This document shows, one piece after another, positions 11 to 17,307 of a stretch of 64,000 nt of DNA. Source of the DNA: Ardenticatenaceae bacterium (lineage in GTDB: Bacteria > Chloroflexota > Anaerolineae > Promineifilales > Promineifilaceae); contig JACKBR010000021.1 of assembly GCA_020634495.1 (NCBI GenBank), positions 25,699 to 89,698 on the forward strand. The letters are read 5' to 3'. The position numbers were made by a program, and so were the translations under genes. The notes beneath the pieces were generated by a model. That model worked only from the letters and a program-made list of their open reading frames with translations. It was not told the origin of the DNA and did no database searches. Positions within the stretch are counted from its first letter, which is position 1. Every line of letters begins with the position of its first letter.

Positions 11-40
11 TTGGTCAATTTTATAAAATTGACCTACGGA
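11..40. repeat. Palindromic repeat, copy 1
   Basis: Ten-bp inverted repeat GGTCAATTTT/AAAATTGACC with a short ATA spacer, flanked by TT and TACGGA. Two further copies lie at 18221-18250 and 18391-18420. On the minus strand it reads CCGTAGGTCAATTTT, and its TAG is the stop codon of the adjoining GNAT gene. It is REP-like, with no transposase nearby. Confidence 0.85.
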
Positions 41-2572: not shown

Positions 2573-2586
2573 ATTTTTTTCCAAAT

Positions 2587-3224: not shown

Positions 3225-4232
3225 TTACAATGGTTTGCGGTAGGTGGCGGATAGCTTATCGGCTTGAAAGCCGAGTCCTGTATAAAGCTGCACAGCCCCT
3301 GTCGTGTCTTCGGTATCGACACCTAACGCCGCTTCTTCCATACCTTCTTTTTTCAATACTTGCAGGCTGCGGGCGATGAGGGCTTTGGCCAGGCCCTGGC
3401 CGCGCCAGAACTGTCGCACAAAAATGCCTTCAGTGTTGCCACGCAAACGGCCGAATGCTTCATTCTCTTTCGTGTCGATGTAATTTAACACACCGCCAGC
3501 CACTTCTGTCCCGTTCCAGCCAATTTGAAACAGGGTCGGATCAAAACTCGGCTGCTCTGACCAGGCGTGAAAATCCTCATCGGTCCATTCCGTCTCGCCC
3601 CAATTATCTTTGAATGCTTCCCGGCACGCCTCCCAGATTTTGCGCCACTCTGTGTGCGAACCCTGGCGTACTTCAATGTTTTCAGGGAGCGGGTAGTTGG
3701 GGATGTTGTGGAGCGACGGCCGTACCATTCTAACAAAGTAACGTACCGGCTTATACCCTTCGTCTTGCAGCGCCTCTGCCCAATTGACATCGCCATCACT
3801 GGCAAAGCTGGTGAGGAACTTTGTGCCGTTTGACGGATGGCTTTTTGCAATTTGACGCAAACGGGATTCGTTAAATTGCAGCATGGCCCGGCGGATTCCT
3901 TCACCTCGCCAATCTGGGCGCAGCTGGGCAAAATGAGCATAGTTGTGAATACCGTCGAGCTGTACTTCCCACCAGCATCTGCTGTACCCAATCATTTCGC
4001 CATGAACTTCAGCAAAAACCATATCTTGATAAGGATCACAATTTGTCATGTGCCGGTAATTGCTCCGGGTCTCTTCAACAGTGGTTGTCCAATCATTGCC
4101 ATCCACAATATTGCTGCGGTTGATGATCTCAACCATCGCGGGAATATCTTCATCACCCCGAAAATGACGAAAAACCAGGCCAGGAACGGCCGTTTCCATC
4201 TTCACATCGATCAAATTATTTTGAATACGCAT
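3225..4232 (-). CDS. Tandem-GNAT acetyltransferase (last gene of operon)
   Basis: A 335-residue protein with two GNAT folds. The N-terminal half (about 15-155) has the degenerate loop WRGEGIRRAML, and the C-terminal half (about 185-335) has a canonical acetyl-CoA loop WRGQGLAKALIA followed by GVDTEDTTGAVQLYTGLGF. This two-domain layout resembles mycothiol-synthase-type and antibiotic-modifying double GNATs, but the substrate cannot be read from sequence. It is a close paralogue of the next gene upstream (4246-5262), sharing VRPSLHNIPN/VRPSLDDIPH and the C-terminal YRKPL/FRKPL, so a tandem duplication is likely. SD AGAGGAAG precedes the ATG. It is the last gene of a tightly spaced seven-gene minus-strand operon with ABC exporters, suggesting a role in detoxification or in modifying an exported compound. 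Confidence 0.85.
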   Translation of the reverse strand: MRIQNNLIDVKMETAVPGLVFRHFRGDEDIPAMVEIINRSNIVDGNDWTTTVEETRSNYRHMTNCDPYQDMVFAEVHGEMIGYSRCWWEVQLDGIHNYAHFAQLRPDWRGEGIRRAMLQFNESRLRQIAKSHPSNGTKFLTSFASDGDVNWAEALQDEGYKPVRYFVRMVRPSLHNIPNYPLPENIEVRQGSHTEWRKIWEACREAFKDNWGETEWTDEDFHAWSEQPSFDPTLFQIGWNGTEVAGGVLNYIDTKENEAFGRLRGNTEGIFVRQFWRGQGLAKALIARSLQVLKKEGMEEAALGVDTEDTTGAVQLYTGLGFQADKLSATYRKPL

Positions 4233-4245
4233 GTCTTCCTCTAAT

Positions 4246-5262
4246 TTACAGAGGCTTACGAAAAGTAACGCCTCGCTTCACTTCCTTAAAGCCCAGGCTG
4301 CGATAAAGCTGCAAAGCCCCGTTGGGATTTTGGCCATCCACGCTCAAGGCGGCATCTTCCATGCCAGCATCCTTTAGCACCTGGAAGCTGCGCGTGATGA
4401 GCGCTTTGGCCACGCCACGCCGCCGCCAAGGGCGACGCACAAAGATGGTTTCCGTGTAGCCACGCTGGCGATCATGCTCTTTGTTTTCGGCTTCATCAAC
4501 GTAGTTGAGCACGCCACCGGCAACCTCATCCCCATCCCAGGCGATTTGCCACAGATCGGGGTTGAAGGTTGGGTATTTTTCCCAGACGTCAAACGATTCC
4601 TCTGGCCATTCAGGCGAAGCCCAATGGTCGCGGAACGCCTCGCGTGCCCCTTCCCAAATTTGCCGCCATTCGGCCAGGCTGCCCCGGCGAACCTCAATGC
4701 CGTCTGGCACGGGGCAGTGGGGGATGTCGTCGAGAGACGGCCGTACCATGTCGAACCCGTAGCGCACAACTTTGAAGCCTTCATCTTGCAGCAGTTGATG
4801 CCAACTCACTTCGCCCTGGCCCGCCCAACTGGTAAAAAACTGGTTGATGGCTGCCGGATGCTCGGTGCTGATTTGGCGCAGACGTTTTTGCAGATGGTGG
4901 ATCATTGCCCGGCGGATGCCGTGAACGCGCCACTGGGGCAGCAGTCTGGCAAAAAAGTAATAGCTGTACCCTTCATCTTTGAGATCGTGCCACCAGCAAC
5001 GGCCGTATCCCACCACAGCCTCATCAACCTCCACAAAAATCATGTCCGTTGCCGGATCGCAGTTGGAGAGATAGCTGTAATCGGCCGCGATGTCCTCCAG
5101 ATTGGTCACATAATCAGACTGGTCTGCTTCGCGGCTGCCATTGAAGATGTCCACAATGTGCGGATAGTCGCTCTCACCCTGAAAGCCACGAAAGCGCAGC
5201 CCTGGCACAGCAGGCATTTCTGCTACTTCAATTTCGTTGTTCACTAATTCAATACTAGACAT
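4246..5262 (-). CDS. Tandem-GNAT acetyltransferase, paralogue of the next gene
   Basis: A 338-residue double-GNAT protein. The first domain (about 20-160) carries WRVHGIRRAMI. The second (about 190-338) carries WRRRGVAKALITRS and VDGQNPNGALQLYRSLGF, the usual acetyl-CoA loop and Tyr-containing end of the fold. It is cytoplasmic. It sits 13 bases upstream of its paralogue and 23 bases downstream of an ABC exporter gene, with a strong SD (GGAGGAG), so it is almost certainly co-transcribed. Keeping both copies may mean two related substrates or dosage. The function is inferred from the fold only. Confidence 0.85.
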   Translation of the reverse strand: MSSIELVNNEIEVAEMPAVPGLRFRGFQGESDYPHIVDIFNGSREADQSDYVTNLEDIAADYSYLSNCDPATDMIFVEVDEAVVGYGRCWWHDLKDEGYSYYFFARLLPQWRVHGIRRAMIHHLQKRLRQISTEHPAAINQFFTSWAGQGEVSWHQLLQDEGFKVVRYGFDMVRPSLDDIPHCPVPDGIEVRRGSLAEWRQIWEGAREAFRDHWASPEWPEESFDVWEKYPTFNPDLWQIAWDGDEVAGGVLNYVDEAENKEHDRQRGYTETIFVRRPWRRRGVAKALITRSFQVLKDAGMEDAALSVDGQNPNGALQLYRSLGFKEVKRGVTFRKPL

Positions 5263-5285: not shown

Positions 5286-7091
5286 TTACAGTCTTAACTG
5301 CATGTTGTACAAATTTGCATACGTGCCACCTAAGGCGATCAATTCTTCATGCGTGCCTTGTTCATCAACCCCTCGCTCTGTCAAAACAACAATGCGCTCC
5401 GCATTTCTCACAGTGGATAGCCGGTGGGCAATCACAATGGTGGTGCGATTGTTGGCCAACTTTTCTAATGATTCCCGAATGGCTTGCTCACTTTCGTTAT
5501 CTAAAGCGCTGGTTGCCTCATCAAAAATGATAACGGGTGGGTTTTTCAAAAAGACGCGGGCAATGCTCAACCGCTGCTTTTGTCCACCAGACAACTTCAC
5601 GCCGCGCTGGCCAATATCCGTGTTGTACCCGTCTGGCAAAGCCATAATGAAGCGGTGCGCATTTGCCCTTTTGGCAGCGTCTACAATTTCCGCCGTGCTG
5701 GCATTCATGAGGCCATAGCGAATATTTTCGGCCACCGTTCCGGCAAAAAGGTACACATCCTGCTGCACCAGCCCGATGTTGCGCCGCAGTGTGCCCAGGT
5801 GAATGTTCTTGATGTTGTTGCCATCCAAAAACACCGCGCCCTCATTCACCTCATAAAACCGGGGAATTAAGGAGCAGAGCGTGGTTTTGCCAATGCCAGA
5901 CGTGCCCACCAGGGCCACAAACTCCCCGGCCTGTATGTCTAATGAAAGATTCTTAAAAACATAATCAGCTTCCTCTTTGTACTTAAAGCTAACATTTTTG
6001 AAGGTTACATTGCCCTGAACCTGTTCCAGATGGTTGGCGTTTGGCGCGTCTTGAATGTCTGGTTCTACTTCCAGAACTTCCATGAATCGCTCAAAGCCAG
6101 CGATGCCTTCCTGGTAAAGTCGGGTGAAATTGCCGTAACGGCGAATCGGTTCAATAAGAATGCCCACGCAAAGCAGAAACGTGATCAGGTCTGGCAAATC
6201 CAGCGAAGCTTTGACAATGCCAATGCCGCCAAAAACAATCACAGCCACCGTCATGAGCTGGGTAAAGGCGATTAACCCTTCATAAAAAAAGGTTTCGCTG
6301 CGGATGCTATCGCTTCTGCTTTGCAAAAACCGGTTATCTTCCTGGGAAAATTTCTTTGCCTCGACTGCTTCATTGTTAAACGATTTCACGACGCGAATCC
6401 CTGCAAGCGTATCTTCCACCTGGGCATTGATGTCGCCGATTCTGTCGCGGCTTTGGCGCAAGGCGGCCTTCATTTTTTTGTTGAAATGGAAGGCATAGAT
6501 GGCCATGATGGGCAAAAAGAGAAAGACGATGAGCGCCAACCTGGCGTTGATGGTGATTAAGATGGCAAACGCGCCCATGAAGTTCAGCGATGAAATCACA
6601 ATATCCTCAGGGCCATGATGAAACAGTTCAGCCAGATTGAATGAATCATTGGTGAGCCGCGTCATCAGCTGCCCCACTTTTTGCTCGTCGTAAAAGCGAA
6701 ATGAGAGCTTTTGGTAATGGTCAAACAGCTCGCGGCGCATGTCTTGTTCCATTTTGGCCCCCATCATGTGCCCCTGGTAGGCCACAAACATATTGCCCAG
6801 GGTATGAATGACGATAAGCCCCAGCATGACTGCGCCCATGCCGTAGATTTGGTTAAGTTTGGCTGCCTCGCTGCCCGCCAGTACATTTTTGGTAATGTAG
6901 CTGACGCACAGCGGTATGAGCAGGGTGGTGGCGGAAACGACAAAAGCGCAGGCCATGTCTGCCCAAAACAAACCCATGTACGGCTTGTAGTAGGAGAGGA
7001 ATTTTCGGGCACGGCCGTTCCCAAAACCAAATTGCTTGCGGCCGTTTTCACTCAAAATTGGCCGTGCCGCTAATATTTCTATACTGCCCAC
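5286..7091 (-). CDS. ABC exporter half-transporter (TMD-NBD), canonical ATPase
   Basis: A 601-residue type I ABC exporter subunit that would use ATP to move a lipid, peptide or drug across the membrane. Six membrane helices span about 30-325. The ATPase domain has Walker A GTSGIGKTT (396), signature LSGGQKQ (500), Walker B plus catalytic Glu FDEATSALD (about 524) and H-loop His in IAHR (about 557). All catalytic residues are intact, so it could work as a homodimer. The start is a GTG directly abutting the TAA of the upstream ABC gene, with SD GGGGAGAT; translational coupling is likely. The substrate is unknown; the context of acetyltransferases and a leader attenuator suggests drug or toxic-compound export. 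Confidence 0.93.
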   Translation of the reverse strand: MGSIEILAARPILSENGRKQFGFGNGRARKFLSYYKPYMGLFWADMACAFVVSATTLLIPLCVSYITKNVLAGSEAAKLNQIYGMGAVMLGLIVIHTLGNMFVAYQGHMMGAKMEQDMRRELFDHYQKLSFRFYDEQKVGQLMTRLTNDSFNLAELFHHGPEDIVISSLNFMGAFAILITINARLALIVFLFLPIMAIYAFHFNKKMKAALRQSRDRIGDINAQVEDTLAGIRVVKSFNNEAVEAKKFSQEDNRFLQSRSDSIRSETFFYEGLIAFTQLMTVAVIVFGGIGIVKASLDLPDLITFLLCVGILIEPIRRYGNFTRLYQEGIAGFERFMEVLEVEPDIQDAPNANHLEQVQGNVTFKNVSFKYKEEADYVFKNLSLDIQAGEFVALVGTSGIGKTTLCSLIPRFYEVNEGAVFLDGNNIKNIHLGTLRRNIGLVQQDVYLFAGTVAENIRYGLMNASTAEIVDAAKRANAHRFIMALPDGYNTDIGQRGVKLSGGQKQRLSIARVFLKNPPVIIFDEATSALDNESEQAIRESLEKLANNRTTIVIAHRLSTVRNAERIVVLTERGVDEQGTHEELIALGGTYANLYNMQLRL

Positions 7092-9011
7092 TTAAACCAT
7101 CTCCCCTTGCCACAAGGCCTGCATTTCTACTGATGTTGCCAACAGTTCATCCAGCGTTCCCTGGGCGGCGATACGGCCGTCTACCAGCACAATGATCTGG
7201 TCGGCTTGCTGCAACACCGCCCGGCGATGGCTTACCACCAGGCAGGTGGGAGATTGGAGATTGGCAGCTTGCAGCTGCGAGATTGGAGATTGATTACTAA
7301 AATCTCCAGTCTCTAATCTCCAGTCTCCATTAAAAATCCCCTCCCACAGTTGCGCCTCCGTCTCCACGTCTAAGGCGCTGGACAAATCATCAAATACCAG
7401 CAGTTCCGCCTCGCGCACCAGCATCCGGGCGGTGGCGGTGCGCTGCACCTGGCCGCCAGACAGGCGCACGCCGCGCGGCCCCACGACGGTATCCAGCCCG
7501 GCTTCTAGCTGGGCGATGTCTGGTTGCAGCACGGCCGTTTGCAACGCCATCTCCAACCCATCCTCCGGCAAACCCAGCAAAATGTTGTCCCGCAGCGGTT
7601 CGCTGAACAGGCGCGGCACCTGCGGCGTGTAAGCCGCACGGGGTGGGGTGAAGAAGGTGGCGGGATTGGTGATAAGACGGCCGTTCCAGCGAATCTCACC
7701 GCCAGCCGCAGGCAGCAAACCCAGCAGCGCCCGCAGCAGCGTCGTCTTGCCTGAGCCGATCTTGCCCGTAATCACCGTAAAGCTGCCGCGCGGCAGGGTG
7801 AAGCTGATGTCTTCTAGGGACCAGGAATCAGTGGTCAGTGGGTCAGTGGTCAGGGGGTCAGTATTTACTGAATACTGATTACTGAATACTGAATACTCAA
7901 ATCCAAGTCCTTCAACTTCCAAAACCTCAAGCCGATCTTCCGCCGCCTTCACCGGCTTCTGAATAGCCGGAACTGGTTCATCTTCATAGATGGGCACGTG
8001 GGCCACCAGGCTTTCTGGCGGGGCGGCTGGCGTGATGGCTTGCAGGCGATCCAAAACCACGCGCTGCTGGGCAATCTCAGACAAATAGCTGCCAATTTGC
8101 GCCGGAAAGCGAGAGACGAAGAAAAGGTAGCTGGTAAACAGCACAAAATCACCGACGCTAAACGTGCCTTGCTGCAACGAAAAGCCAGCCATAATCACCA
8201 TCAAAGCCACGGCCACGTCCCCCATGTTGTCCGTGACGGATTGGAAGATGGCCCAAAAGAGGCCAAAGCGAACGTTGGCCACGCGCCGCGCATCGCTTAA
8301 TTCGCGCAGGTAGCCAATGGTGCCTGTTTCCGCATCGGCCACTTTGATGGCCTGGATGGCCCCGAACGTTTCGCCCAAAAAGGCCGCAACGGCACTGTCG
8401 CTAACCCGGCTAATGCGCACGTAAGTCAGGAAGCGCCCCCAGGCCCAGCGGGTGAGAAAGAAAACGCCGATGAGGGGCAGAATGGCAACGGCCGTAATCC
8501 CCGGTGCAATGCGAAACATGATGATCAGGGCAAAAATGGCAAACGTCGTGTGGCCGCTGATTTCGGGAACCCAGGTGGGGAAGTCAGCAAAATCAGCCAG
8601 ATCATCATCTAACCGGTTGATGACATCCCCGGTAGGCACGGGCAGCGGCTCGGCACCTGGCTTGTGCAGGATGTTTTGCATGACGTTGAGGCGCATGAGC
8701 GATTGTGCCGCCATGCGTACCTTGGCCGCCCCCCAATTGCCCAGGATGTCAAACACCATTCGGCTCAGTTCCACACCAATGATGAGCAAGAGCAGAGTCC
8801 AAAGGGCGTTCGGAAGAGCAACGGCCGTTTCCACCGAACCATTCAACTGATCAAAGTAACTTTTTTCCAGCCAGCCCGGTACCAGCCGCATACCAAAAGC
8901 GTACAGCGCCATCGCCACGCTTAGCACAAAATGCCACGGCCGGTAACGAATCAGCGACCAGGTTCCTGTTTTAATTGGAAGTTTGTCGAAGGTCGTTTTA
9001 CTGTTGTTCAT
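7092..9011 (-). CDS. ABC exporter half-transporter with degenerate catalytic site and repeat-encoded inserts
   Basis: About 639 residues: an N-terminal six-helix membrane domain and an ATPase domain with Walker [10 protein letters not shown] (about 416), signature LSGGQVQ (about 517) and Walker [11 protein letters not shown] (about 541). The catalytic Glu is replaced by Asp, the hallmark of the degenerate half of heterodimeric exporters such as BmrCD or TM287/288. Two stretches are encoded by short DNA repeats: about residues 372-398 (before Walker A) and 563-588 (between D-loop and H-loop). I chose the ATG at 9011 because SD GGAG sits 5 nt upstream; it overlaps the previous gene by 14 bases. 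A likely partner is the ABC subunit at 9618-11435, which has an intact Glu but an altered signature. Confidence 0.9.
7249..7334. repeat. GAGATTGGAGATTG-type repeat inside ABC exporter gene
   Basis: Units of GGAGATTGGAGATTG and its complement AATCTCCAGTCTC form an imperfect inverted tract within the coding sequence, adding about 26 residues between the D-loop and the switch His without breaking the frame. Related units occur at 10326-10402. Confidence 0.8.
7818..7901. repeat. CAGTGGTCAGTG / ACTGAATACTGATTAC repeat inside ABC exporter gene
   Basis: Short tandem units alternating GGTCAGTGGTCAGGG and ACTGAATACTGATTACTG inside the reading frame, giving a Ser/Thr/Asn/Gln-rich insert in the beta1-beta2 hairpin ahead of Walker A. 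The same unit occurs at the equivalent place in the exporter gene at 9618-11435. Confidence 0.85.
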
Positions 9012-9621
9012 TTTTCTCCAAATTTGCCAGCACAAGCTGGCACAAATCATCGACAGATTTGGTGCCATCCTGATAAAGAACGTTTATCTGCAATGCGTCT
9101 GCCTGCGCTTTCATGAGGTTGTTGTACCAGAGGCTGCGCCCCATGAAGTTAGCAAACATGCGCTCTGGATCGGCAGAGCCTTCCAGAAATTCATCGTTTT
9201 TTCGCTCGCGGGCTTCTAAAACGGTGGGATCAATCACCAGCCAGCCAGCCCACACATTTGGCAGTTGCAGCTGCGCCACCCATTCCGGCCGGATGTGCCA
9301 GCCGTCTATGACAATGCCGCGTTTTAGATAGGTATATTTTTGGATGAGCCGCGCCACCATTGGCCAGGTGGCTTCGTGCCGCAGAGTAGCGTCGGCGATG
9401 AGTTCATCCACGGTGCTGTTGGTGAAATATTCGGTATGTGGCCCTTTGCGCAGGGCATGAATGCCTGGATGGGTTTCTGGTGTAGTGACGGCGATTACGG
9501 CCGTTACCAAATCATCTATCGTCAGGGAATTAACGCCCAACTTGACGGCCAATGCAGAACCCAACGTGGTTTTGCCCGCCCCAGGCGCACCACCGATCAA
9601 AATCACTTTATTGCTTATCAT
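8998..9621 (-). CDS. P-loop kinase, 2-phosphoglycerate-kinase-like
   Basis: A 207-residue P-loop NTPase of the adenylate/shikimate kinase class. Walker [11 protein letters not shown] lies at about 10-19, there is an Asp-rich IDDL after the first helix, and a helical lid contains [17 protein letters not shown]. The spacing and the [13 protein letters not shown] segment resemble proteins annotated as 2-phosphoglycerate kinase or zeta-like small-molecule kinases; the substrate is uncertain. It is encoded between two ABC exporter genes: its ATG overlaps the TGA of the upstream gene (ATGA), and its 3' end overlaps the next ABC start. This coupling argues for a shared function, for example phosphorylating the exported compound or a resistance role. 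Confidence 0.75.
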
Positions 9622-11435
9622 GCTAATGCCTCTTCAATGCCAGTTTTCAACAGTTGCGAAAAACGCGAATCAGGGTCGTTGAGCAGTTGCAAACGTGGCC
9701 CGTGTTCCTGAATACGGCCGTTTTCCAAAATCAAAATATCGTCGGCCCGCTGCACAGTGCGCAGGCGGTGAGCGATGATGATGGCGGTACGGCCGTACAG
9801 CAAGGTATCAATCGCTCGCTCTAGCAGCTGCTCCGTGGCCGGGTCCAGCCGGGACGACGCCTCATCCAAAATCACCAGCTGCGGATCGCGCAAAAAGACC
9901 CGCGTAAAGGCCAGCAGCTGCGCCTGCCCGGCTGAGAGACCCTGGCCACCCGTTTTCAGTTCAGTGTCCAGACCGTCTGGCAGGCTGGCCAGCCAGTCGC
10001 CCAGCCCCAGCGTGTGCAGCGCCGCTTCAATTTCTGCATCAGGAATGGGCGGCTTGCTGGGGTCATAGCGACGAAACAGCGTCAGGTTGTCGCGCACGGT
10101 GGCGGCAAAAAGCTGCACCTCCTGCGTCACCATGCCGATGTGCTGCCGTACGTTGGCTAGGCCAACATTTCGCAAATCAATGCCGTCCAGGGCAATGCTG
10201 CCTGCGTCCACATCGTACAGCCGGAAGAGCAGCCGGGTGAGCGTGGTCTTGCCGCTGCCGGTGCGCCCCAGCAGGCCCAGGACTTTGCCAGCTGGCAGTT
10301 CAAACGTCACGTCGTGCAAGACGTTTTGAGACTGGAGACTGGAGATTGGAGATTGGTTGCCGTTCACTGAATACTGATTACTGACCACCGATAACTGATC
10401 TTTATAGGCAAACGAAACGCTGCGGAAGGAAACGGCCGTTGCCTCCGCAGGCAGCACGGCAGAAACTGATTCCTTCACTTCTGGCTCTAGCTGCAAAAAT
10501 TCGTTGATCCGGCCCACGCTGGCCACCGCCCGCTGCAAATCGCTAATTTGCCGCCGGATGTACTTGATGGGGGATTCCATCAGTCGCACGTAAGCCACCA
10601 GCAAAAACAGCGTGCCAATGCTAATTTGCCCCTGCAAAAAGAGAGTGCCTGCCAGCGCCAGCGCCGCCACGATGGCCAACACATACAGCATGTAGCTGCT
10701 GCTAAAGGTGTAGCCGCCAATCACCGATGCCCGAATGCGGCTCTGGGCCACATCTGCCAGCAAGGGATATAGCTTCTGAAAAACATAAGCCTCACCGCCA
10801 TTGGCCCGAATATCCTCCGTGCCGCCGATGCGCTCTTCTACGTAGCCGTGCAGTTTGGCGTATGCTTTGCTCACGTCGCGCCACACGTTCACCGTGGGTT
10901 TGCGGATTACTTGCAGTAAACCCAGGGTCAAAACGCCATAAGCCAACCCGACCAGACCCAAACGCCACTCTTCGACAAAAAGTAGCGCCAGGATGCCAAT
11001 GACCAGCACGGCGTTGCCCAACACCTGCACCAGAAGCCGGGAAAAGAATTCGGCCAGGTTGCTCACGTCGCCATCGATGCGCTCAATGAGTTCGCCGGGG
11101 GTTTGCAGCTTGTGAAAGCCCATGTCCAGCCGCATGATGTGGGTAGCCAGATCGACCCGCAGGTTGTTGGTGGCCGCCCAGCCCAAATCTTCGCTCAGGT
11201 AGGTGGTCCACAGCGCCACAGCTTTTTGGGCAACGGTTACCGCAAAAAACAACAGGCCTAGATTGACCAGCAGCCGTACGGCCGTACCGCCCTGTGCCGC
11301 ATCTAAAAAGTCCCGAATGACCTGTGGGCCATAAAGCTGCAAACCAATGCTGATGGCCAGTAAGCTGCCCAATCCAACAAGACGGGTGGTGAACGGCCGT
11401 AAATATTGTTTCAGTAAGTCCCAACTACTTAACAT
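9618..11435 (-). CDS. ABC exporter half-transporter, altered signature motif
   Basis: A 605-residue half-transporter. The membrane domain covers about 20-310. The ATPase domain has Walker A GRTGSGKTT (390), signature LSAGQAQ (500, Ala replacing the first Gly), Walker B ILDEASSRLD with catalytic Glu (about 525), and H-loop IAHR. An intact Glu with a non-canonical signature is what the consensus half of a heterodimeric exporter usually shows, fitting a pair with the 7092-9011 product, which has Asp plus a perfect LSGGQ. Residues 346-372 are repeat-encoded, at the same hairpin as in that partner. The start ATG immediately follows the TAA of the RIO kinase gene, with SD AGGAGGG. Confidence 0.92.
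   Translation of the reverse strand: MLSSWDLLKQYLRPFTTRLVGLGSLLAISIGLQLYGPQVIRDFLDAAQGGTAVRLLVNLGLLFFAVTVAQKAVALWTTYLSEDLGWAATNNLRVDLATHIMRLDMGFHKLQTPGELIERIDGDVSNLAEFFSRLLVQVLGNAVLVIGILALLFVEEWRLGLVGLAYGVLTLGLLQVIRKPTVNVWRDVSKAYAKLHGYVEERIGGTEDIRANGGEAYVFQKLYPLLADVAQSRIRASVIGGYTFSSSYMLYVLAIVAALALAGTLFLQGQISIGTLFLLVAYVRLMESPIKYIRRQISDLQRAVASVGRINEFLQLEPEVKESVSAVLPAEATAVSFRSVSFAYKDQLSVVSNQYSVNGNQSPISSLQSQNVLHDVTFELPAGKVLGLLGRTGSGKTTLTRLLFRLYDVDAGSIALDGIDLRNVGLANVRQHIGMVTQEVQLFAATVRDNLTLFRRYDPSKPPIPDAEIEAALHTLGLGDWLASLPDGLDTELKTGGQGLSAGQAQLLAFTRVFLRDPQLVILDEASSRLDPATEQLLERAIDTLLYGRTAIIIAHRLRTVQRADDILILENGRIQEHGPRLQLLNDPDSRFSQLLKTGIEEALA
10326..10402. repeat. Composite GGAGATTGG + ACTGAATACTGATTAC repeat inside ABC exporter gene
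   Basis: Combines both unit types seen in the 7092-9011 gene (GACTGGAGATTGGAGATTGG followed by CACTGAATACTGATTACTG) and stays in frame, encoding a Ser/Asn/Gln-rich loop ahead of Walker A. Confidence 0.85.
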
Positions 11436-12413
11436 TTACCCTCCTGAGCTTGAACCAGGCCCCATGTACGGATCCCATAAGCTGTGCGTCAGCGAAACCG
11501 GATCGGTGGCAATGCCAAAGCTGCTAAAGTATTCGCAAACCCGCGTGATGTCCCGTTCCAGCAGCTCGTAGGCGTGTGGATTGTGCCGCGCCTCCACCAT
11601 TTGCGGGAAGTCAATCAGATAAACTGAGCCTTCCCAATACAAAATGTTGTATGCCGAGAGGTCGCCATGAATCAGATGGTTGTCCAGCATCAGGGCCACA
11701 TTGTCCAAAATGTGCTTGAACAGTGGCTCTGCCTCTTCTTTTGGCAGGCGCACCTCGCTAAGCGTGGGGGCCGGGCCGTACTCATCGCCAATGTAGGCCA
11801 TCAGGATGGTGTTTCCCTGGTGGGCAATGGGTTTGGGCACGCTGGCCCCAGCCTTAAAAAGCTGGGTTTGGGTGCGGTACTCGTTGCCAATCCACCATTG
11901 AATATCCACTGATTTGCCAAAATTGGTTTTCTTGCGCAGGGCCGTTTTTACCCGCCGTCCTTTCATCTGCTTGCCTTGCTCATCGCGCAATACGCGGCCT
12001 GCTTTGTAAACAGCATCGTTTTTTAGATGGCGCAGCATTCGCGGACGGTACAGCTTGGCGGCGATGAGTTCCAGGCCAGTGGCCGGGTGTGCCGTGCAGG
12101 CGTAGACGTTGGCCTCCTTGCCACCTTTCACCAGCCGCGTCACGTCAGTGACAATCTGGTCGCGGTAAAAGGGGCCAACCGATTCGGTCACCCACTGCCG
12201 CTCGTGGTGGCGTGGGTCGATGGCTTTGGCGTAGGTGGGAACCCAATTTTCAATGCCGTCGTCCATTTCTTGAATTTCGCGGATGATTTGGCGGGAACGG
12301 CCGTTGCTCTTCTTTTTCTTTTTTCTTGGCCCAGGCCGGTTCCGCCGGGCCTCCCGACTGTTGTCGTCGAACTGGTACGCTTCGTATTTCTCAAAAGCCT
12401 CAAACTTGTCCAT
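11436..12413 (-). CDS. RIO-type serine/threonine protein kinase
   Basis: A 325-residue atypical kinase of the RIO family. The nucleotide-binding loop is KGGKEANVY (96-104), the catalytic Lys lies in AAKLYRP (120), the catalytic loop is HGDLSAYN (249-256), and the metal-binding segment is IDFPQ (267-271), the RIO version of DFG. A basic Lys/Arg-rich N-terminal region (about 20-45) precedes the kinase. In archaea and eukaryotes RIO kinases act on ribosome maturation; the role of bacterial members is poorly known. It is the first protein of the seven-gene operon and lies about 100 nt downstream of a leader ORF and two terminators, so its expression is probably set by attenuation. The SD is weak. 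Confidence 0.88.
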   Translation of the reverse strand: MDKFEAFEKYEAYQFDDNSREARRNRPGPRKKKKKSNGRSRQIIREIQEMDDGIENWVPTYAKAIDPRHHERQWVTESVGPFYRDQIVTDVTRLVKGGKEANVYACTAHPATGLELIAAKLYRPRMLRHLKNDAVYKAGRVLRDEQGKQMKGRRVKTALRKKTNFGKSVDIQWWIGNEYRTQTQLFKAGASVPKPIAHQGNTILMAYIGDEYGPAPTLSEVRLPKEEAEPLFKHILDNVALMLDNHLIHGDLSAYNILYWEGSVYLIDFPQMVEARHNPHAYELLERDITRVCEYFSSFGIATDPVSLTHSLWDPYMGPGSSSGG

Positions 12414-12513
12414 GAGATTGATTTTGGGCCGGTTTTAGAATGATCCGGCGAACATCCCAAGATTCTTTAGACAGGAATTGTGGCTTTTGTTTGGTTTAGG
12501 GTAAGAGAGAAAC

Positions 12514-12547
12514 AAAAAGCCACCGAGCAAAATTGTGTGTCGGTGGC
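12514..12547 (-). terminator. Rho-independent terminator T2
   Basis: Minus-strand RNA: 8-bp stem GCCACCGA/TCGGTGGC (12547-12540 with 12526-12519), a 13-nt loop and a TTTTT tail. It is the second of two tandem terminators between the leader ORF and the RIO kinase gene. Confidence 0.85.
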
Positions 12548-12569
12548 TGAGCTGCCAAAAATAGGCAAC

Positions 12570-12600
12570 AAAAAAGCCACAGGTTTTGTACACCCGTGGC
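12570..12600 (-). terminator. Rho-independent terminator T1 of the attenuator
   Basis: Minus-strand RNA: stem GCCACGGG/CCTGTGGC (12600-12593 with 12583-12576, one G-T wobble), 9-nt loop and TTTTTT. Its 5' arm and loop can instead pair with the end of the leader ORF, so it is predicted to be conditional. Confidence 0.88.
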
Positions 12601-12718
12601 CACAAAATCATCCAAAAAGGATTACGCTTGGATTCTTAGCAGTTAACAGGTGTACCCACACAACGTCCGATTACGTTTTCGAAGATGTTGCTTTTCACTT
12701 TTGCCATCTTGTGGGTAC
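12588..12718 (-). promoter_or_regulatory. Alternative RNA stems: anti-SD, antiterminator and terminator
   Basis: Three segments compete. Segment 1 (GTACCCACA, 12718-12710, just after the SD) pairs perfectly over 9 bp with segment 2 (TGTGGGTAC, 12660-12652, inside the leader ORF). Segment 2 extended (GTACACCTGT, 12655-12646) pairs over 10 bp, with one wobble, with segment 3 (ACGGGTGTAC, 12597-12588), which is the 5' arm and loop of terminator T1. Pairs 1:2 and 2:3 exclude each other, and 2:3 excludes T1. This is the layout of a leader-peptide attenuator: a ribosome paused early would free segment 2 to form the antiterminator. Pairings were read by eye; no folding energies were computed. Confidence 0.7.
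12636..12707 (-). CDS. 23-residue leader peptide
   Basis: A 23-codon ORF starting ATG GCA AAA GTG with a perfect SD (AAAGGAGGT) 8 nt upstream, ending in TAA. The peptide begins MAKVKSNIFE, ends GTPVNC, and has Cys at 16 and 23; it has no signal peptide or membrane segment. A promoter lies 46 nt upstream of its ATG and two terminators follow. Codons 16-21 overlap the RNA segment that can pair either with the region next to the SD or with the terminator, so the ORF most likely senses ribosome progress and controls read-through into the kinase/ABC exporter/GNAT operon. An alternative is a secreted or modified Cys peptide exported by the operon; no leader/core pattern or recognisable maturase supports that. 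Confidence 0.75.
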   Translation of the reverse strand: MAKVKSNIFENVIGRCVGTPVNC

Positions 12719-12752
12719 CTCCTTTCAAAATTTTTGTTTGGTTAACGCCGAC

Positions 12753-12781
12753 AGTCTACCATGCCTTTTTTGGACGGTCAA
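12753..12781 (-). promoter_or_regulatory. Sigma70-type promoter of the leader/attenuator
   Basis: Minus strand: -35 TTGACC (12781-12776), 17-nt spacer, -10 TAGACT (12758-12753). Predicted transcript start is near 12746, about 40 nt ahead of the leader ATG. The spacing and both hexamers are close to consensus. Confidence 0.75.
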
Positions 12782-12794
12782 GCATTTTTTTGAA

Positions 12795-13469
12795 TCAGCC
12801 TCCTGACACCGGCCTTGGTGGATCGGCAACAACGGGGAAGGCTTCATACCGAATTGAGATGTTTCGGCAAACCAATGGATTGGAATCTACCAGCTCATAG
12901 CCAACAATTTGAAACTTAACCACATGGTCATCTAAGGTTTTGAAAAGGTAGATAAAGCCATCGGCTGGGACATTTCCTTTGTGCAGGTAATACAGATCGA
13001 AGTAACCTGTTTGTGCATGTTTTTGTGCCGCAAAATTGGCATCTCGAATATCTCGATATTTAATGGATTCAAAATTTGCAGTGCCATATTCAAACCAACT
13101 GACGCCCTCAAACACTCTTAAAGATTCCATGTTTTCTGGCCAACAGCCGAACTGCAAATCCCAATCCCGGTCTGTTTGTGAAGGGGCGGCGCTAATGTGG
13201 CCTGTTTCAAAATCAATTGCATCCAGCCCCTGAAGCGTTGCTTCTTGCGGGTCGCCAGACAAGGACTGCGGCGAGAAATTGATCCAATCTTCTAAATTGT
13301 TTTCGAGGTCGTTTTGGGCTATGCGGGTTGCTTCATAATTCGTTGGCGGGTCAATATAATTTAACAGCGCAACAATACCACCCCCGGCAGCAAGCAAGGC
13401 GATGATGACACCAATTATCCACTTGAACCAACTTGCGCAACCGCCTCGATTTTGTGTTTCTTGTGACAT
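12795..13469 (-). CDS. Membrane-anchored hypothetical protein
   Basis: Function not recognised. From the ATG at 13469 (SD AGGAGA 6 nt upstream) the product is about 224 residues: a short Gly/Cys-containing cytoplasmic start, one hydrophobic helix (WFKWIIGVIIALLAAGGGIVALL, roughly residues 15-37; shown here only to mark the helix by its first and last residues W and L), then an extracytoplasmic domain with several aromatic residues and conserved-looking DWDLQFG and GYFDLYYLHKG segments. A longer start at 13499 is possible but has no better SD. The leader promoter begins just past its stop, so transcription of the leader operon is separate. Confidence 0.6.
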   Translation of the reverse strand: MSQETQNRGGCASWFKWIIGVIIALLAAGGGIVALLNYIDPPTNYEATRIAQNDLENNLEDWINFSPQSLSGDPQEATLQGLDAIDFETGHISAAPSQTDRDWDLQFGCWPENMESLRVFEGVSWFEYGTANFESIKYRDIRDANFAAQKHAQTGYFDLYYLHKGNVPADGFIYLFKTLDDHVVKFQIVGYELVDSNPLVCRNISIRYEAFPVVADPPRPVSGG

Positions 13470-13694
13470 GCCTTTTCTCCTGATTTTAGGCTGCTCCAAA
13501 TGGGCACTTTGCGGCCATTTGCAGGCAGCAAATGGAACTAACGGTTAATGGAGTTGGTAAAGCACGAATGAAATCTATAATCATAAACGGGGGAGACGGC
13601 CGTTTTCCCGCAATCTGCTTAGACACATCAGGAACATCTTGGCTGTTGGCAGCGTTGCAAAGGTATATTTTGTTAGGCGGACTGGAGGATGTAG

Positions 13695-15029
13695 ATGAGA
13701 GTTAGAGTCAGTTTTATTTGCCTGTTAGTTATTTTGCTGGCAGCTTGTGCCCCCGGCGGCGCAGAACCTGAATTGGTGGAAACGGCCGTTCCCACCCAGG
13801 AAATCCACCTCGATGCCCAATCTTATGCCGATGATTTAGGCGTGAGCCTGGAAGAAGCCTCGCGTCGCCTGAACCTGCAAGAGGCAATTGGTGAATTGGG
13901 GGCATCTTTAGAAGCCAACGAAACCGACACCTTTGCCGGATTGTGGATTGAGCATGAGCCAGCCTACAAGGTTGTGGTGGCGTTTGTGGGAGATGCGGGG
14001 GAGGCGGTGATACGGCCGTATCGCCAAACCTATCCCCAACTAAGCGACATCATCGAAATTCGCACCGCGCAGTACACCCTGGCCGAACTGCTGGCCGCCC
14101 AGCAAGAAGCATTCAACATCGTGGCGAAGCTGGAGCCGATGTCCGTTGCGGGCGGTGTGGACGTGATGCAAAATCGCGTTTACCTGACAGTGGGCAACCC
14201 AGAGCTGTTCCTGCAAGCCGTGGCCGATGCTGGCTACGAACTGCCGCCGCTGGTGGCTGTGGAGCCAATCGACCCTGAAAATATTCCCGAAAGCAATTCT
14301 GGTGGTTTGGATGAATACGCTGGGGTGGACGGCCGTACAATCTACTTTCCTCGTCAGGCCCCAGCCGTAGCGGGCATGGATGCTTTGCTAGAAGGCAGCC
14401 TCGTCCTCGATGAAAATGGCTGCCTGCGCGTGCAGCATGAAAGCGTGCCTGTGGACGATGCGCCAATCGTCATCTGGCACTATGATTTTTCGCTGGAAAT
14501 TAATGGTGAGTCCATCACCGTGCTGAACGGTGATGGCGAACCGGTTGGCCGCGTCGGCGAATGGACGCGCCTGGGCGGTGGGGAAGGCGGGCGCACGCTG
14601 GCAGAGTCGGAGATGCCTGCAAACTGCCCTGGCCCATACTGGATTTTGGGCAGCATCGAAACGATGGCCGAGCAAGCTATCCCCGATATTTACCTTCAGC
14701 CAGTAAGCACCGGCAGCGGGGCAATTTACTATTTTCAGTCCAAAGCGGCCGTTGCTGAAGGCAGCATCAGCGGCTCCTTAAACGTCGAGGATGGCTGTTT
14801 CCGGGTGGATGGCTACACAATCTTTTGGCCGCCAGACGTTTGGCCCGATGAGGACGCCGACCCATTGCAAATTGTGTACCGCAAAGATGGCATTGAGGCG
14901 GTGCTGTTTGCCGTGGGGGATGAAATTACGCTGACTGGTGGAGAGAAAACGGCCGAAAATTACCGCTTCTTCGAAAACAAAGTCGCCTGCCCTGGGCCGT
15001 TTTGGGGCGTGGCCCCGCTTTCACCCTAA
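13695..15029 (+). CDS. Putative lipoprotein, 444 residues
   Basis: Function not recognised. A lipoprotein signal (hydrophobic stretch ending LLAAC, Cys at about 19) indicates anchoring on the outer face of the membrane. The mature part seems to contain two similar beta-rich modules, each with a central CLRV/CFRV and a CPGPYW/CPGPFW motif (near residues 235-320 and 360-440), suggesting internal duplication; the paired Cys residues could form disulfides. SD GGAGG lies 7 nt before the ATG. The gene is convergent with the di-haem/beta-helix gene, with a 15-bp perfect hairpin between them. Confidence 0.7.
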   Translation: MRVRVSFICLLVILLAACAPGGAEPELVETAVPTQEIHLDAQSYADDLGVSLEEASRRLNLQEAIGELGASLEANETDTFAGLWIEHEPAYKVVVAFVGDAGEAVIRPYRQTYPQLSDIIEIRTAQYTLAELLAAQQEAFNIVAKLEPMSVAGGVDVMQNRVYLTVGNPELFLQAVADAGYELPPLVAVEPIDPENIPESNSGGLDEYAGVDGRTIYFPRQAPAVAGMDALLEGSLVLDENGCLRVQHESVPVDDAPIVIWHYDFSLEINGESITVLNGDGEPVGRVGEWTRLGGGEGGRTLAESEMPANCPGPYWILGSIETMAEQAIPDIYLQPVSTGSGAIYYFQSKAAVAEGSISGSLNVEDGCFRVDGYTIFWPPDVWPDEDADPLQIVYRKDGIEAVLFAVGDEITLTGGEKTAENYRFFENKVACPGPFWGVAPLSP

Positions 15030-15031
15030 TC

Positions 15032-15064
15032 AGGTGCGACGCACTTCAAAAGTGCGTCGCACCT
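15032..15064. terminator. 15-bp perfect hairpin between convergent genes
   Basis: AGGTGCGACGCACTT and its exact complement separated by only 3 nt. It has no clear T-run on either side, so it may act as a bidirectional terminator by stem strength or be a dispersed palindromic repeat. Confidence 0.6.
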
Positions 15065-15069
15065 CAGGT

Positions 15070-17307
15070 TTAGAGCAATTGGCTCACCAAAAAGCCGAGG
15101 ATGTTGCTGTAGCCACGACGGGCAAAATTAGGCCAGCCGTCACCGGGCACCAGCGGTGGGAACGACGAGGCGCTTGCCTCGTTGAAGCGGTTGTTCAGCC
15201 CGGTGCCGTCCCACATAATATCGGCCGTGGGGATGCCCAAATCGCGCACAAAGGGATCCGCATCGTAGCCATTGTTTTCATAGATGTTGTCGTGAATCCA
15301 ATTGTTTTCTGGCAGTGGCCCCACGTCTACCTCGTTCACGTCAAATGCACCCGTGCTGGTGAGGCTGAAAATGGCCACGCCGGTGGTTTTATTGTTGCTG
15401 ATGACATTGTTGTAAACTTCCGCGCTGTCGGTGGCCAGTAGCAAAATGCCCACGCCAGATGGGGCAATCCCGGCAATGGCTCCGGGCGGGGCAAAGTTTT
15501 CGTGGTTGTTGTCCTCGGTGATGTTGTCGTAAACCAGCGTATTGGCCGAGATTTTAGAGGTGAGCTGGGGCAGCAGAACCACGAAGATGCCGACGGTGTT
15601 GTCGTAGGCGTGGTTGTTGTAGATTTCGCCGCCAAAAGTGTTTTCTAGCTCAATGCCCAGCACATTGCCATAAACCACGCTGTCCCGCACGATGACGTTT
15701 TCGCACTGCCCGGCGTAAATCCCGGCATCGTCCACGCCAGTGACTTCGACGCGCTCAATCAACACGTCGGTGCTGCGCACGGGGTAGACGCCGTAGGTGC
15801 CTACGTTTTCGGCAAATATGTCGTGGAAATGCACGCCCGTCACGCCCTCGACCAGGACGCCGTTGTCGGTGTAGTTGCGCACATGCAGGTTGCTTACAGT
15901 GAAGTTGTTGCCAGAAGCGATGACGCCTTCGGTCAGCTTGCCCTCACCGTCGAAGATGGGCCATTCGCCTGCCGCGTTGGGAATGCCGCGCAGGGTGATG
16001 TTGTTGATGTCGATGACGACGCGCTCGTGGTAGACGCCGTAGGGCACTTCGATGGTGTCACCGGGGCGGGCCCGGTCTACGGCCGTTTGCACACTTTCTC
16101 CATCTGCCACCACAATCGTCGTTGGTTCCCGGTCGGTTAAATCAATGCCCGTGTCGCCACCAACATTGTGTGTTGCCACTTCAGCCCGCGCTGCATTGTC
16201 GCTTGGTTGGATGACGGGTAGGCCGCTGGGAACGGCCGTTGGCACATCAGGCAACCCACTCTCATCGGTCAGCGCGTACAGGAACGCTACTAAATCGAGC
16301 CGCTCCTGGTCGGTCAGGTCAAAGCCCTGCACAAAGACATCCACATTTTCCTGGCCGTGCAGGCGACCCCCGCCGTCGGCGTAAAAATCAACCACCGCGT
16401 CCAGCGTTTCCAGCGAGCCGTTGTGCATGTAGGGGGCGGTCAGGGCAATGTTGCGCAGCGAGGGCACTTTGAACGCGCCCTGTGAACCATCGGCCACCAC
16501 GCCTGCCCGGCCCGGATCGTCGCTGGGCACACCGACCACGCGGAAGCTGTCGCTGGCGAAGGTCGGCGCGGTGTGGCACTCAAAGCAGCGCGTTGCCCCG
16601 GAGCGGAACAGGGCCAGGCCGCGCCGCTGGCTGGGCGTCAGGGCATCGACGTTGCCCGCCGCGTACTGGTCAAACGGGCTGTTGTTGCTGATGAGCGTGC
16701 GCTGGAACGCTGCCAGCGCATTTTCGATGTTTTCCAGGGTGACGCCGTCGGCAAAGGCGGCATTGAACATCGTTTCGTATTCGCCAATGGCGGCAACTTC
16801 GGCTACCAGGGCGGCAGTGTCGCTAACCCCCATTTCGTCGGGATGGGTGAGGGGGACTTCAGATTGGGCTTCGAGGGAATCGAGACGGCCGTCCCAAAAC
16901 AAATTCTGCGCATAGCCAACATTCCACAATCCGGGCGTGTTGCGCGTGAGTTCTGTGCCGCTGGGGCCGATGGCGGTGGAACGGCCGTCGCTAAAGCCCA
17001 AATCCGGCTGGTGGCAGGTGGCGCAGGCGATGTCGTTGTTTTCTGACAACACGGGGTCGAAGAAGAGCAAATAGCCGAGTTCTGCTTTGGCGTCGGTGGT
17101 GGGGTTTACGGCCGTTTCGTTCAGTGGCGGAAATTCGCGCTGCAAGCCCGTGTACGACGGCTGCACGCTGCTGGCCCCCGCGCCATGATTTTCGCCAACG
17201 TCAGGGTCAGCCTCCGCAGGAACGATGGCGGCGACCACAAAAATGATGAGCAGCAGGGCGACCAGAACGCCCAAAATGCGAGCGATCCATTTTAGGACAG
17301 TGGACAT
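15070..17307 (-). CDS. MauG/di-haem cytochrome c peroxidase-like protein fused to a parallel beta-helix
   Basis: A 745-residue exported protein. A signal/anchor helix spans about 8-29. Residues 55-350 form a di-haem domain with two haem c sites, CATCH (95-99) and CFECH (241-245), plus a likely axial Met in APYMHNG (294). Residues about 385-745 are a right-handed parallel beta-helix with NosD/PbH1-type repeats (recurring YNN, VYGN, GIYA-type turns). Di-haem proteins of this class reduce peroxide or oxidise partner proteins; beta-helices typically bind or cut polysaccharide, or act as scaffolds. The fusion is unusual. SD GAGGAG precedes the ATG. A lipoprotein cytochrome c is encoded just upstream on the same strand and may be its electron partner. 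Confidence 0.88.
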   Translation of the reverse strand: MSTVLKWIARILGVLVALLLIIFVVAAIVPAEADPDVGENHGAGASSVQPSYTGLQREFPPLNETAVNPTTDAKAELGYLLFFDPVLSENNDIACATCHQPDLGFSDGRSTAIGPSGTELTRNTPGLWNVGYAQNLFWDGRLDSLEAQSEVPLTHPDEMGVSDTAALVAEVAAIGEYETMFNAAFADGVTLENIENALAAFQRTLISNNSPFDQYAAGNVDALTPSQRRGLALFRSGATRCFECHTAPTFASDSFRVVGVPSDDPGRAGVVADGSQGAFKVPSLRNIALTAPYMHNGSLETLDAVVDFYADGGGRLHGQENVDVFVQGFDLTDQERLDLVAFLYALTDESGLPDVPTAVPSGLPVIQPSDNAARAEVATHNVGGDTGIDLTDREPTTIVVADGESVQTAVDRARPGDTIEVPYGVYHERVVIDINNITLRGIPNAAGEWPIFDGEGKLTEGVIASGNNFTVSNLHVRNYTDNGVLVEGVTGVHFHDIFAENVGTYGVYPVRSTDVLIERVEVTGVDDAGIYAGQCENVIVRDSVVYGNVLGIELENTFGGEIYNNHAYDNTVGIFVVLLPQLTSKISANTLVYDNITEDNNHENFAPPGAIAGIAPSGVGILLLATDSAEVYNNVISNNKTTGVAIFSLTSTGAFDVNEVDVGPLPENNWIHDNIYENNGYDADPFVRDLGIPTADIMWDGTGLNNRFNEASASSFPPLVPGDGWPNFARRGYSNILGFLVSQLL

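Follow-up and report, generated by a model that had tools for sequence, protein, structure and literature searches.

The minus strand of positions 12781-12513 of the window, by which we mean the whole stretch of 64,000 nucleotides from an Ardenticatenaceae bacterium analyzed here, contains a promoter, an SD sequence, an ORF of 23 codons and two intrinsic terminators ahead of a gene for a RIO1-type protein kinase. This raises the question of how RNA polymerase can pass two terminators on its way into the operon, and to which cue it would respond. A ribosome stuck at the start of the short ORF appears to be required for the leader to turn on a stress operon, which comprises a RIO kinase, exporters of the drug type, acetyltransferases and possibly a ribosome GTPase. 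We regard it as probable that the leader is a ribosome-controlled transcription attenuator, which is turned ON by an arrest at the leader start that is most likely caused by antibiotics.

Organization of the leader and the downstream genes

The leader consists of the following elements (alignment A2 is described below):

12753-12781, minus strand: sigma-70-type promoter TTGACC-17-TAGACT with a TG before the -10 element (site scan)
12717-12722, minus strand: SD sequence AGGAGG of the leader ORF, conserved in alignment A2
12710-12718, minus strand: segment 1, GTACCCACA, overlapping the SD flank; partner of segment 2 (anti-antiterminator)
12636-12707, minus strand: leader ORF, 23 codons and stop, MAKVKSNIFENVIGRCVGTPVNC (reading frame; frame kept in relatives)
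12657-12664, minus strand: segment 2a, GTTGTGTG, the bases of which pair partly with segment 1, or with the T2 loop
12652-12660, minus strand: segment 2, TGTGGGTAC, partner of segment 1
12646-12655, minus strand: segment 2b, GTACACCTGT, partner of segment 3 (antiterminator of T1)
12588-12597, minus strand: segment 3, ACGGGTGTAC, 5' arm and loop of T1
12570-12601, minus strand: terminator T1, a 10-bp hairpin (12601-12575) and U-run, -17.1 kcal/mol, arms co-vary
12575-12584, minus strand: segment 4, 3' arm of T1; GTGGCT (12580-12575) is able to pair with the 5' arm of T2 (12548-12543)
12513-12548, minus strand: terminator T2, hairpin (12548-12518) and U-run; its loop CACACAA (12539-12533) complements segment 2a

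The promoter, the SD sequence and the 23-codon ORF had already been recognized in an earlier reading of the bare letters (the sequence-only reading) and are present as claimed there. Segment 2, which this reading had put at codons 16-18, is correctly located, whereas its exact limits differ, as TGTGGGTAC begins with the third base of codon 16 and ends with the second base of codon 19 (12660-12652). The ORF ends at 12636 and T1 begins at 12601, which places T1 outside the ORF. A simple scan of positions 8000-16000 returned TTGACC-17-TAGACT as the sole promoter-like site of the minus strand and T1 as the top entry of the terminator list, from which T2 is absent because its loop exceeds the loop limit of the scan. 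The totals of these scans were not above chance (4 promoter-like sites with 4.8 expected, 14 terminator-like sites with 10.9 expected), and therefore we placed weight on conservation. The pair of GTACCCACA and TGTGGGTAC occurs once in the window and not at all in shuffles, and the naked window leader folds into 1:2, T1 and T2 with a z of -3.9, a stability equaled by 0 of 200 shuffles. Upstream of the promoter, an ORF of 234 residues (12795-13499, minus strand) gave no Pfam match.

Behind the leader, the following genes are located:

11436-12413, minus strand: RIO1-type protein kinase, first gene after the leader (PF01163, 6.2e-38)
9618-11435, minus strand: ABC exporter half-transporter (PF00664/PF00005)
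8998-9621, minus strand: P-loop kinase-like protein (AAA_33, zeta-toxin domain; Pfam)
7092-9068, minus strand: ABC exporter half-transporter (PF00005/PF00664)
5286-7091, minus strand: ABC exporter half-transporter (PF00664/PF00005)
4246-5262, minus strand: GNAT acetyltransferase (PF00583, 1.2e-18, two stretches)
3225-4232, minus strand: GNAT acetyltransferase (PF00583, 1.5e-16)
1376-2584, minus strand: RsgA-like GTPase (PF03193, 3.7e-49)
34-1152, minus strand: GNAT acetyltransferase (PF12746, 3.2e-31), an unsure member of the same transcript

Membership of the RsgA-like GTPase in the transcript is likewise unsure, since 640 nt separate its gene from the last GNAT gene. A search with the kinase yielded 6098 similar proteins, and those named among the 120 matches listed belong to Chloroflexota, e.g., Promineifilaceae, Ardenticatenaceae and Leptofilum; a plasmid search returned 10 records, every one below 35% identity.

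The exclusive pairings co-vary in related leaders

Relatives were collected by scanning GTDB contigs with an alignment of the kinase, and the best 80 loci were kept, resulting in 81 sources together with the window. A script that requires an SD sequence, a short ORF and a terminator only identified a leader in 44 of the 81 sources, with a spurious-looking one in L040. In L020, L025 and L033 inspection by eye of the sequence up to 300 nt ahead of the kinase revealed a leader ORF and complementarity of the 1:2 type with no clear intrinsic terminator, and a switch at these loci may act on translation or Rho. The genomes of three kinase loci among the best matches to the Chloroflexota alignment (L022, L060 and L063) are labelled as Proteobacteria, Planctomycetia and Bacteroidetes; these taxon labels or bins may be wrong.

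For the analysis of covariation, 28 chosen leaders including the window were aligned with MAFFT (alignment A2). Segments 1, 2 and 3 shift jointly, from GGTAC, GTACACC and GGTGTAC near the window to GGCGC, GCGCC and GGGCGC in distant leaders, and the 1:2 register of close relatives is two columns off that of the distant leaders. Pairings 1:2 and 3:4 together pair 85.2% of the cells of A2 (slid maximum 48.6%) with 68 two-sided changes versus 28.2 in shuffles, and 0 of 500 shuffles matched the percentage or the score. For 2:3, 86.0% of the cells are paired (slid maximum 57.7%), 33 two-sided changes compare with 14.9 expected and again none of 500 shuffles matched percentage or score; two of the five measures are unexceptional, as 47 and 99 of 500 shuffles reach them. 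In 37 leaders the own-locus duplexes 1:2 and 2:3 were both stronger than those with permuted partners (0/5000 each), in a test for which the script picked the strongest terminator, in several loci T2 and not T1. Both the A2 shuffles and the permuted-duplex tests retain the relatedness of the rows.

To get further leaders, a covariance model (R1) was derived from A2 that includes 1:2 and 3:4 and omits 2:3. It matches 51 of the 81 sources at E<0.01 (28 of the 81 being its own training rows), and in L039, L042, L045, L048, L051, L056 and L057 a distance of 1-7 kb separates the match from the downstream kinase. A further set of 92 matches from 91 of 92 sources (L114 had none) was aligned to R1; it omits L103, L112, L115, L117-L120, L121-L144 and L152. 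No 30-mer is common to these leaders and any A2 row, a 20-mer is common to three pairs, and RIO is the first ORF in ten of the leaders. Pairing 2:3, which is absent from R1, pairs 733 of 850 cells in this set (86%; slid maximum 0.60), and the own 1:2 and 2:3 duplexes beat permuted ones (0/5000). The three mutually exclusive pairings 1:2, 2:3 and 3:4 proposed by the sequence-only reading hold in this analysis: they co-vary in the 28 aligned leaders, and 2:3 is paired again in the 92 additional ones. Of the 139 leaders at hand one has too little upstream sequence, and a promoter with 9 of 12 consensus positions is found upstream of 113 of the other 138 versus 7% of mononucleotide shuffles.

The reading frame is kept, the peptide is not

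An ATG follows the SD sequence under our spacing rule in 78 of the 92 further leaders, with 14 lacking such an ATG. In 73 of these 78 the frame of the ORF runs through segment 2 without a stop codon, compared with 22 and 40 for the other two frames. The stop codon follows segment 2 at a distance of 9-12 nt in 42 of the 78 leaders and of 6-20 nt in 61, so that a terminating ribosome would cover segment 2. The script found 120 distinct peptides of 9-35 residues with no conserved residue near the N-terminus and diverse positions 2-9; 117 of the 120 ORFs start with ATG, a share that is partly built in because the script favors ATG and GGAGG. Conservation of the leader peptide, which the sequence-only reading had named as a check, is thus seen for the ORF and not for the peptide sequence. 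This combination suits a sensor that responds to ribosomes arrested close to the start codon, like that of vmlR, and by analogy with that leader, drugs that arrest ribosomes at the start codon might cause an arrest independent of the peptide.

Directly before the stop codon, 45 of the 120 peptides end in Arg, which perhaps tunes the dwell time of the ribosome on segment 2. We also considered a toxin or bacteriocin for the Cys-containing ORF of 23 residues and dropped this reading, because its C-terminal letters overlap an RNA pairing segment and the peptides of relatives differ.

Candidate control of the second terminator and folding with a masked ribosome site

The sequence-only reading had found no obvious antiterminator for T2, but two candidates emerged from our analysis, namely 2a with the T2 loop and the 3' arm of T1 with the 5' arm of T2. 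In the window 2a complements the T2 loop as GTTGTGTG:CACACAAT, the match extends over 9-10 nt in L001, L003 and L010, and L258 has two-sided changes (GCGTTACG:CGTAACGC). The own score of 18.0 versus 14.5 for permuted partners (0/5000) was obtained, with longer T2 loops admitted, for 29 rows from 27 loci, two of which contribute two alternative starts, and some rows are near-duplicates. Matches of at least 8 nt are mostly found in close relatives, and in several distant leaders (L028, L031, L037, L069, L075 and L080) the best run has only 5-7 nt. In an alignment of 14 rows, in the register of which L003, L277 and L255 are unpaired, this helix passes the slides (80.4% versus a maximum of 64.1%) and fails the shuffles (130 of 500 reach the percentage and 65 of 500 the score). 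The second candidate had an own energy of -16.2 versus -12.5 kcal/mol for permuted partners in 11 leaders (0/5000), which come from a search for T2 with loops of at most 12 nt, hence without the window, L001 and L002; L022, L040 and L047 were excluded. It is stronger than every other same-locus terminator in seven of the nine loci having any, the exceptions being the near-identical pair L003 and L005. As 2a complements the T2 loop and the 3' arm of T1 the 5' arm of T2, one freed segment could therefore disarm both terminators through a three-way junction, which is the weaker part of our model.

Folding of the window RNA up to a point before the 3' arm of T2, with the leader start masked as by a ribosome, gave 0.99 for 2:3, 0.98 for 4:5, 0.92 for 2a:T2 and 0.00 for T1. 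In the same RNA T1 amounts to 0.91 when naked and to 0.91-0.94 with a ribosome at codon 16, at codon 20 or at the stop codon. The folding in the window therefore follows the pattern predicted by the sequence-only reading, both for a ribosome at the leader start, which was expected to favor 2:3 and to block T1, and for free RNA or full translation, which were expected to favor T1. A mask at codon 8 favors T1 and one at codon 12 mostly 2:3, thus the response to later stalls is not simple. As a control, 5 of 40 shuffles of the T2 half lowered T1 as much. On the complete window RNA T1 and T2 win under every mask, therefore the switch would have to be kinetic. The same follows from the enforced three-way junction, which is 4.6 kcal/mol better than T1 before the 3' arm of T2 exists and 5.0 kcal/mol worse than T1 and T2 once T2 is complete, so that the outcome would be decided by kinetics.

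Mask folding was extended to 22 two-terminator leaders from the 27 loci (L108, L250 and L261-L263 were excluded). The start mask lowers T1 to at most 0.11 in 17 of them and leaves it at 0.30-0.89 in the other five (L002, L004, L069, L080 and L255). With a ribosome at the stop codon T1 is at least 0.60 in 13 of the 17 compliant leaders; 11 of the 17 have T1 below 0.5 already in naked RNA, and therefore only the window and a few relatives show a clear OFF state without ribosome. Inspection by eye suggested a third terminator, sharing the arm sequence of T1 and T2, in L003 (about 4477-4512) and ahead of the kinase in L276 and L280.

Distribution of the leader and genes behind it

Of 20 genomes selected among those with kinase loci, 18 gave a match to R1 at E<=1 and 16 at E<=0.001. 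In the family the model matched 33 of 52 genomes (E<=0.001), in the class 111 of 298 (E<=0.01, strict filters) and in the phylum 26 of 301 (E<=0.001), 19 of these 26 being already known from the class search. Another phylum, that of an Armatimonadetes-labelled genome, served as a control and yielded matches in 7 of 151 genomes at E<=0.01; therefore single matches near 1e-3 are not trusted. The one control match below 1e-5 (L235, 101-243) is a Tyr-run leader, read by eye as RYYYYASS, which is followed by a terminator and by a gene that Pfam identifies as tyrosyl-tRNA synthetase-like. Among 12 inspected matches outside the main set, from the control phylum and other genomes, few resemble the leader.

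In the order of G001 the kinase is present in 35 of 56 genomes at 37 places. The leader is located within about 500 nt upstream at 26 of these places and at 1.3 kb at one more; the ten places without a detected leader include three at contig ends. Nine of ten picked genomes have one strong RIO1 gene (E<1e-30), always with the leader upstream (9/9), which is no unbiased rate because the ten were picked among genomes with leader matches. A leader is also present in Longilinea arvoryzae (L035), a relative that has been cultured.

Other copies of the leader are followed by ABC exporters, ABC-2 pumps, GNAT arrays, RsgA-type GTPases and MFS pumps, which for the most part belong to the classes found downstream in the window. 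We compared 96 fetched leaders having a downstream ORF of at least 100 residues by phmmer with the window proteins and a few regulon seeds, leaving out three weak matches (L115, L119 and L120) and L173, which has no ORF. The first ORF was an ABC exporter in 20, GNAT in 18, RIO in 11, an ABC-2 ATPase in 10, RsgA in 8 and LeuRS in 2 cases, with 27 unassigned. Pfam counts, which overlap, were ABC_tran 27, Acetyltransf_1 19, ABC_membrane 17, Acetyltransf_3 15, RIO1 11, RsgA 8 and MFS 3 for 89 first ORFs (seven of the 96 loci with a far first ORF were omitted and L188, at 999 nt, was retained). The leuS leaders (L112, 371-542; L118, 426-532) are of another kind: their peptide is rich in Leu, the terminator is similar, and they look like classical Leu attenuators. 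Of 24 loci from the class search, some of which are the same loci as A2 rows, the first gene is RIO in 16, ABC in 4, RsgA in 2 and unassigned in 2.

Two genomes carry four leaders each, before RIO, a GNAT array, an ABC-2 pump and an ABC exporter pair, all on one contig of 4.1 Mb (G231) or 4.4 Mb (G046); in the window the RIO, ABC exporter, GNAT and RsgA classes are gathered behind one leader. Among the twelve closest loci (L001, L003-L013), nine have a relative of the first window exporter at most two genes from RIO, and RsgA adjoins or nearly adjoins RIO in L010, L021, L028, L045, L051, L056 and L057. Two strong RsgA genes (E<1e-50) are present in each of G001 and G751, one of them 7-9 kb behind the leader, and G009 has two strong RsgA genes, neither of them close to a leader. 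The link of the leader to exporter-type genes drawn by the sequence-only reading is borne out by the same gene classes behind leaders in many Anaerolineae genomes. These data support the leader as a regulon element of Anaerolineae, with a RIO1-type kinase as first gene in the window, and the genes behind it are of resistance type, with a putative role in resistance.

Alternative explanations

Trp-type amino-acid leader attenuators use the 1:2, 2:3, 3:4 logic, and a classical attenuator of this type, in which the ribosome stalls at the codons of an amino acid in short supply and T1 is prevented, would share the pairings found here. It is also in line with the Leu-rich leader before leuS in genomes with a RIO leader (L112, L118) and the Tyr-run leader before tyrS in another phylum (L235). 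However, the window leader has no regulatory codon run and its ON position is the ORF start, the window peptide contains no run of a single residue, positions 2-9 of the 120 peptides are diverse, a late stall in the ORF covers segment 2 and favors T1, and the first genes are mostly pumps, GNATs, RIO or RsgA, so that we consider this explanation very unlikely. RIO1 and RsgA are small-subunit maturation factors elsewhere, and the leader might sense poor initiation or a lacking initiation component (fMet-tRNA, initiation factors or immature 30S) and the operon repair small subunits. The arrest window at the start codon in mask folding, the seven loci in which RsgA and RIO are neighbors and the second strong RsgA gene behind the leader in G001 and G751 would fit such a sensor; the prevalence of efflux pumps and GNATs among the first genes of the regulon and the fact that a complete lack of initiation favors T1 in the window argue against it, and we regard it as rather unlikely.

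Two terminators ahead of a gene would also be expected if termination were constitutive, the ORF incidental and the operon driven by a promoter nearer to the kinase. The simple scan revealed no promoter-like site on the minus strand in 12414-12513, where the sequence-only reading had considered another promoter as an argument against attenuation; moreover 1:2 and 2:3 co-vary and the ORF is kept, which makes this explanation highly unlikely. A regulon-wide RNA with a terminator could also be a ligand-binding riboswitch with an incidental ORF. Rfam gave no match at gathering score, or near it, for the whole window and only chance-level matches at E up to 5 for 12400-12900, conservation sits in the pairing segments and the SD sequence with no aptamer-like core seen in A2, and the ORF is kept; a riboswitch is therefore highly unlikely.

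Proposed mechanism and comparison with known systems

For the attenuator controlled by ribosome arrest, the computations establish the pairings 1:2, 2:3 and 3:4 with their covariation, a kept ORF and a regulon. Judged from predicted translation and predicted fold, an ORF with SD sequence, an intrinsic terminator and covarying exclusive pairings would qualify the leader as ribosome-mediated. During fluent translation the ribosome would reach the stop codon and cover segment 2, leaving segment 3 free, and T1 would form; with no ribosome segment 2 would be paired with segment 1, segment 3 would again be free and T1 would form as well. A polymerase passing T1 would then encounter T2. A ribosome arrested in roughly the first five codons would cover segment 1 and free segment 2, whereupon 2b would pair with the 5' arm of T1, the 3' arm of T1 with the 5' arm of T2 and 2a with the T2 loop. 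The resulting three-way junction, in kinetic competition with the terminators, is assumed to disarm T1 and T2 and to let the polymerase enter the operon. Ribosome stalling would thus be the trigger, and the cue an arrest or slow progress at or just after initiation, most likely by translation-inhibiting antibiotics, with the peptide sequence hardly mattering.

It is conceivable, with somewhat less than even confidence, that Anaerolineae possess a class-wide alarm for start-arrested ribosomes, in which a bipartite antiterminator turns two tandem terminators into a harmless three-way junction, and that a RIO1 kinase and an RsgA paralogue take part in inducible ribosome protection beside pumps and acetyltransferases. 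If true, this would extend antibiotic-type leader attenuation, which the literature surveyed describes in Bacillus, Listeria, Streptococcus, E. coli and Sinorhizobium, to a class that is mostly represented by metagenomes, and to a whole regulon instead of a single gene. A bacterial RIO1 kinase would gain a testable cue, the arrest at translation start, and a way would be shown for one RNA segment to silence two terminators in series. Among the papers listed from a largely open-access literature for tandem terminators, attenuation, leader peptides, Chloroflexi and RIO kinase, none was seen to describe the leader, and the main text of one survey (PMC2965389) contains no word beginning with "chloroflex".

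The sequence-only reading had compared the leader with bmrB of Bacillus subtilis, which is described as an ORF with terminator, antiterminator and anti-antiterminator before the ABC multidrug exporter genes bmrCD, and at which ribosome-targeting antibiotics raise read-through (PMC4191407). The same arrangement ahead of exporter genes is predicted for the window, where a response to antibiotics would follow the same logic. The ORF of bmrB has about 53 residues and contains the terminator (PMC4191407). The window ORF ends before T1, and the window leader differs further in its two terminators and a RIO kinase as first gene. In Listeria the rli80-hflXr leader, an attenuator with an ORF of 14 residues, is reported to control a GTPase that acts on the ribosome and duplicates a housekeeping gene, and its peptide contains the macrolide-arrest motif RLR (PMC6310831). 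The duplicated GTPase recalls the second RsgA in G001 and G751, whereas window-type leaders have no conserved motif. A comparable case is the uORF of E. coli topAI-yjhQ, which is said to sense several classes of ribosome-targeting antibiotics (PMC12121999). In the vmlR leader of B. subtilis, as described, the uORF is located inside the anti-antiterminator, arrest of the initiating ribosome lets the antiterminator form and variant tripeptides work (PMC9226507). By analogy, the window leader may share an anti-antiterminator holding the uORF, an arrest near the start and indifference to the peptide sequence; vmlR differs in its three-codon uORF, its ABCF target and one terminator with a hairpin over the SD sequence of the target (PMC9226507). 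The proposed attenuator is conserved and of a known general kind, and its lineage, regulon and two-terminator anatomy are apparently new.
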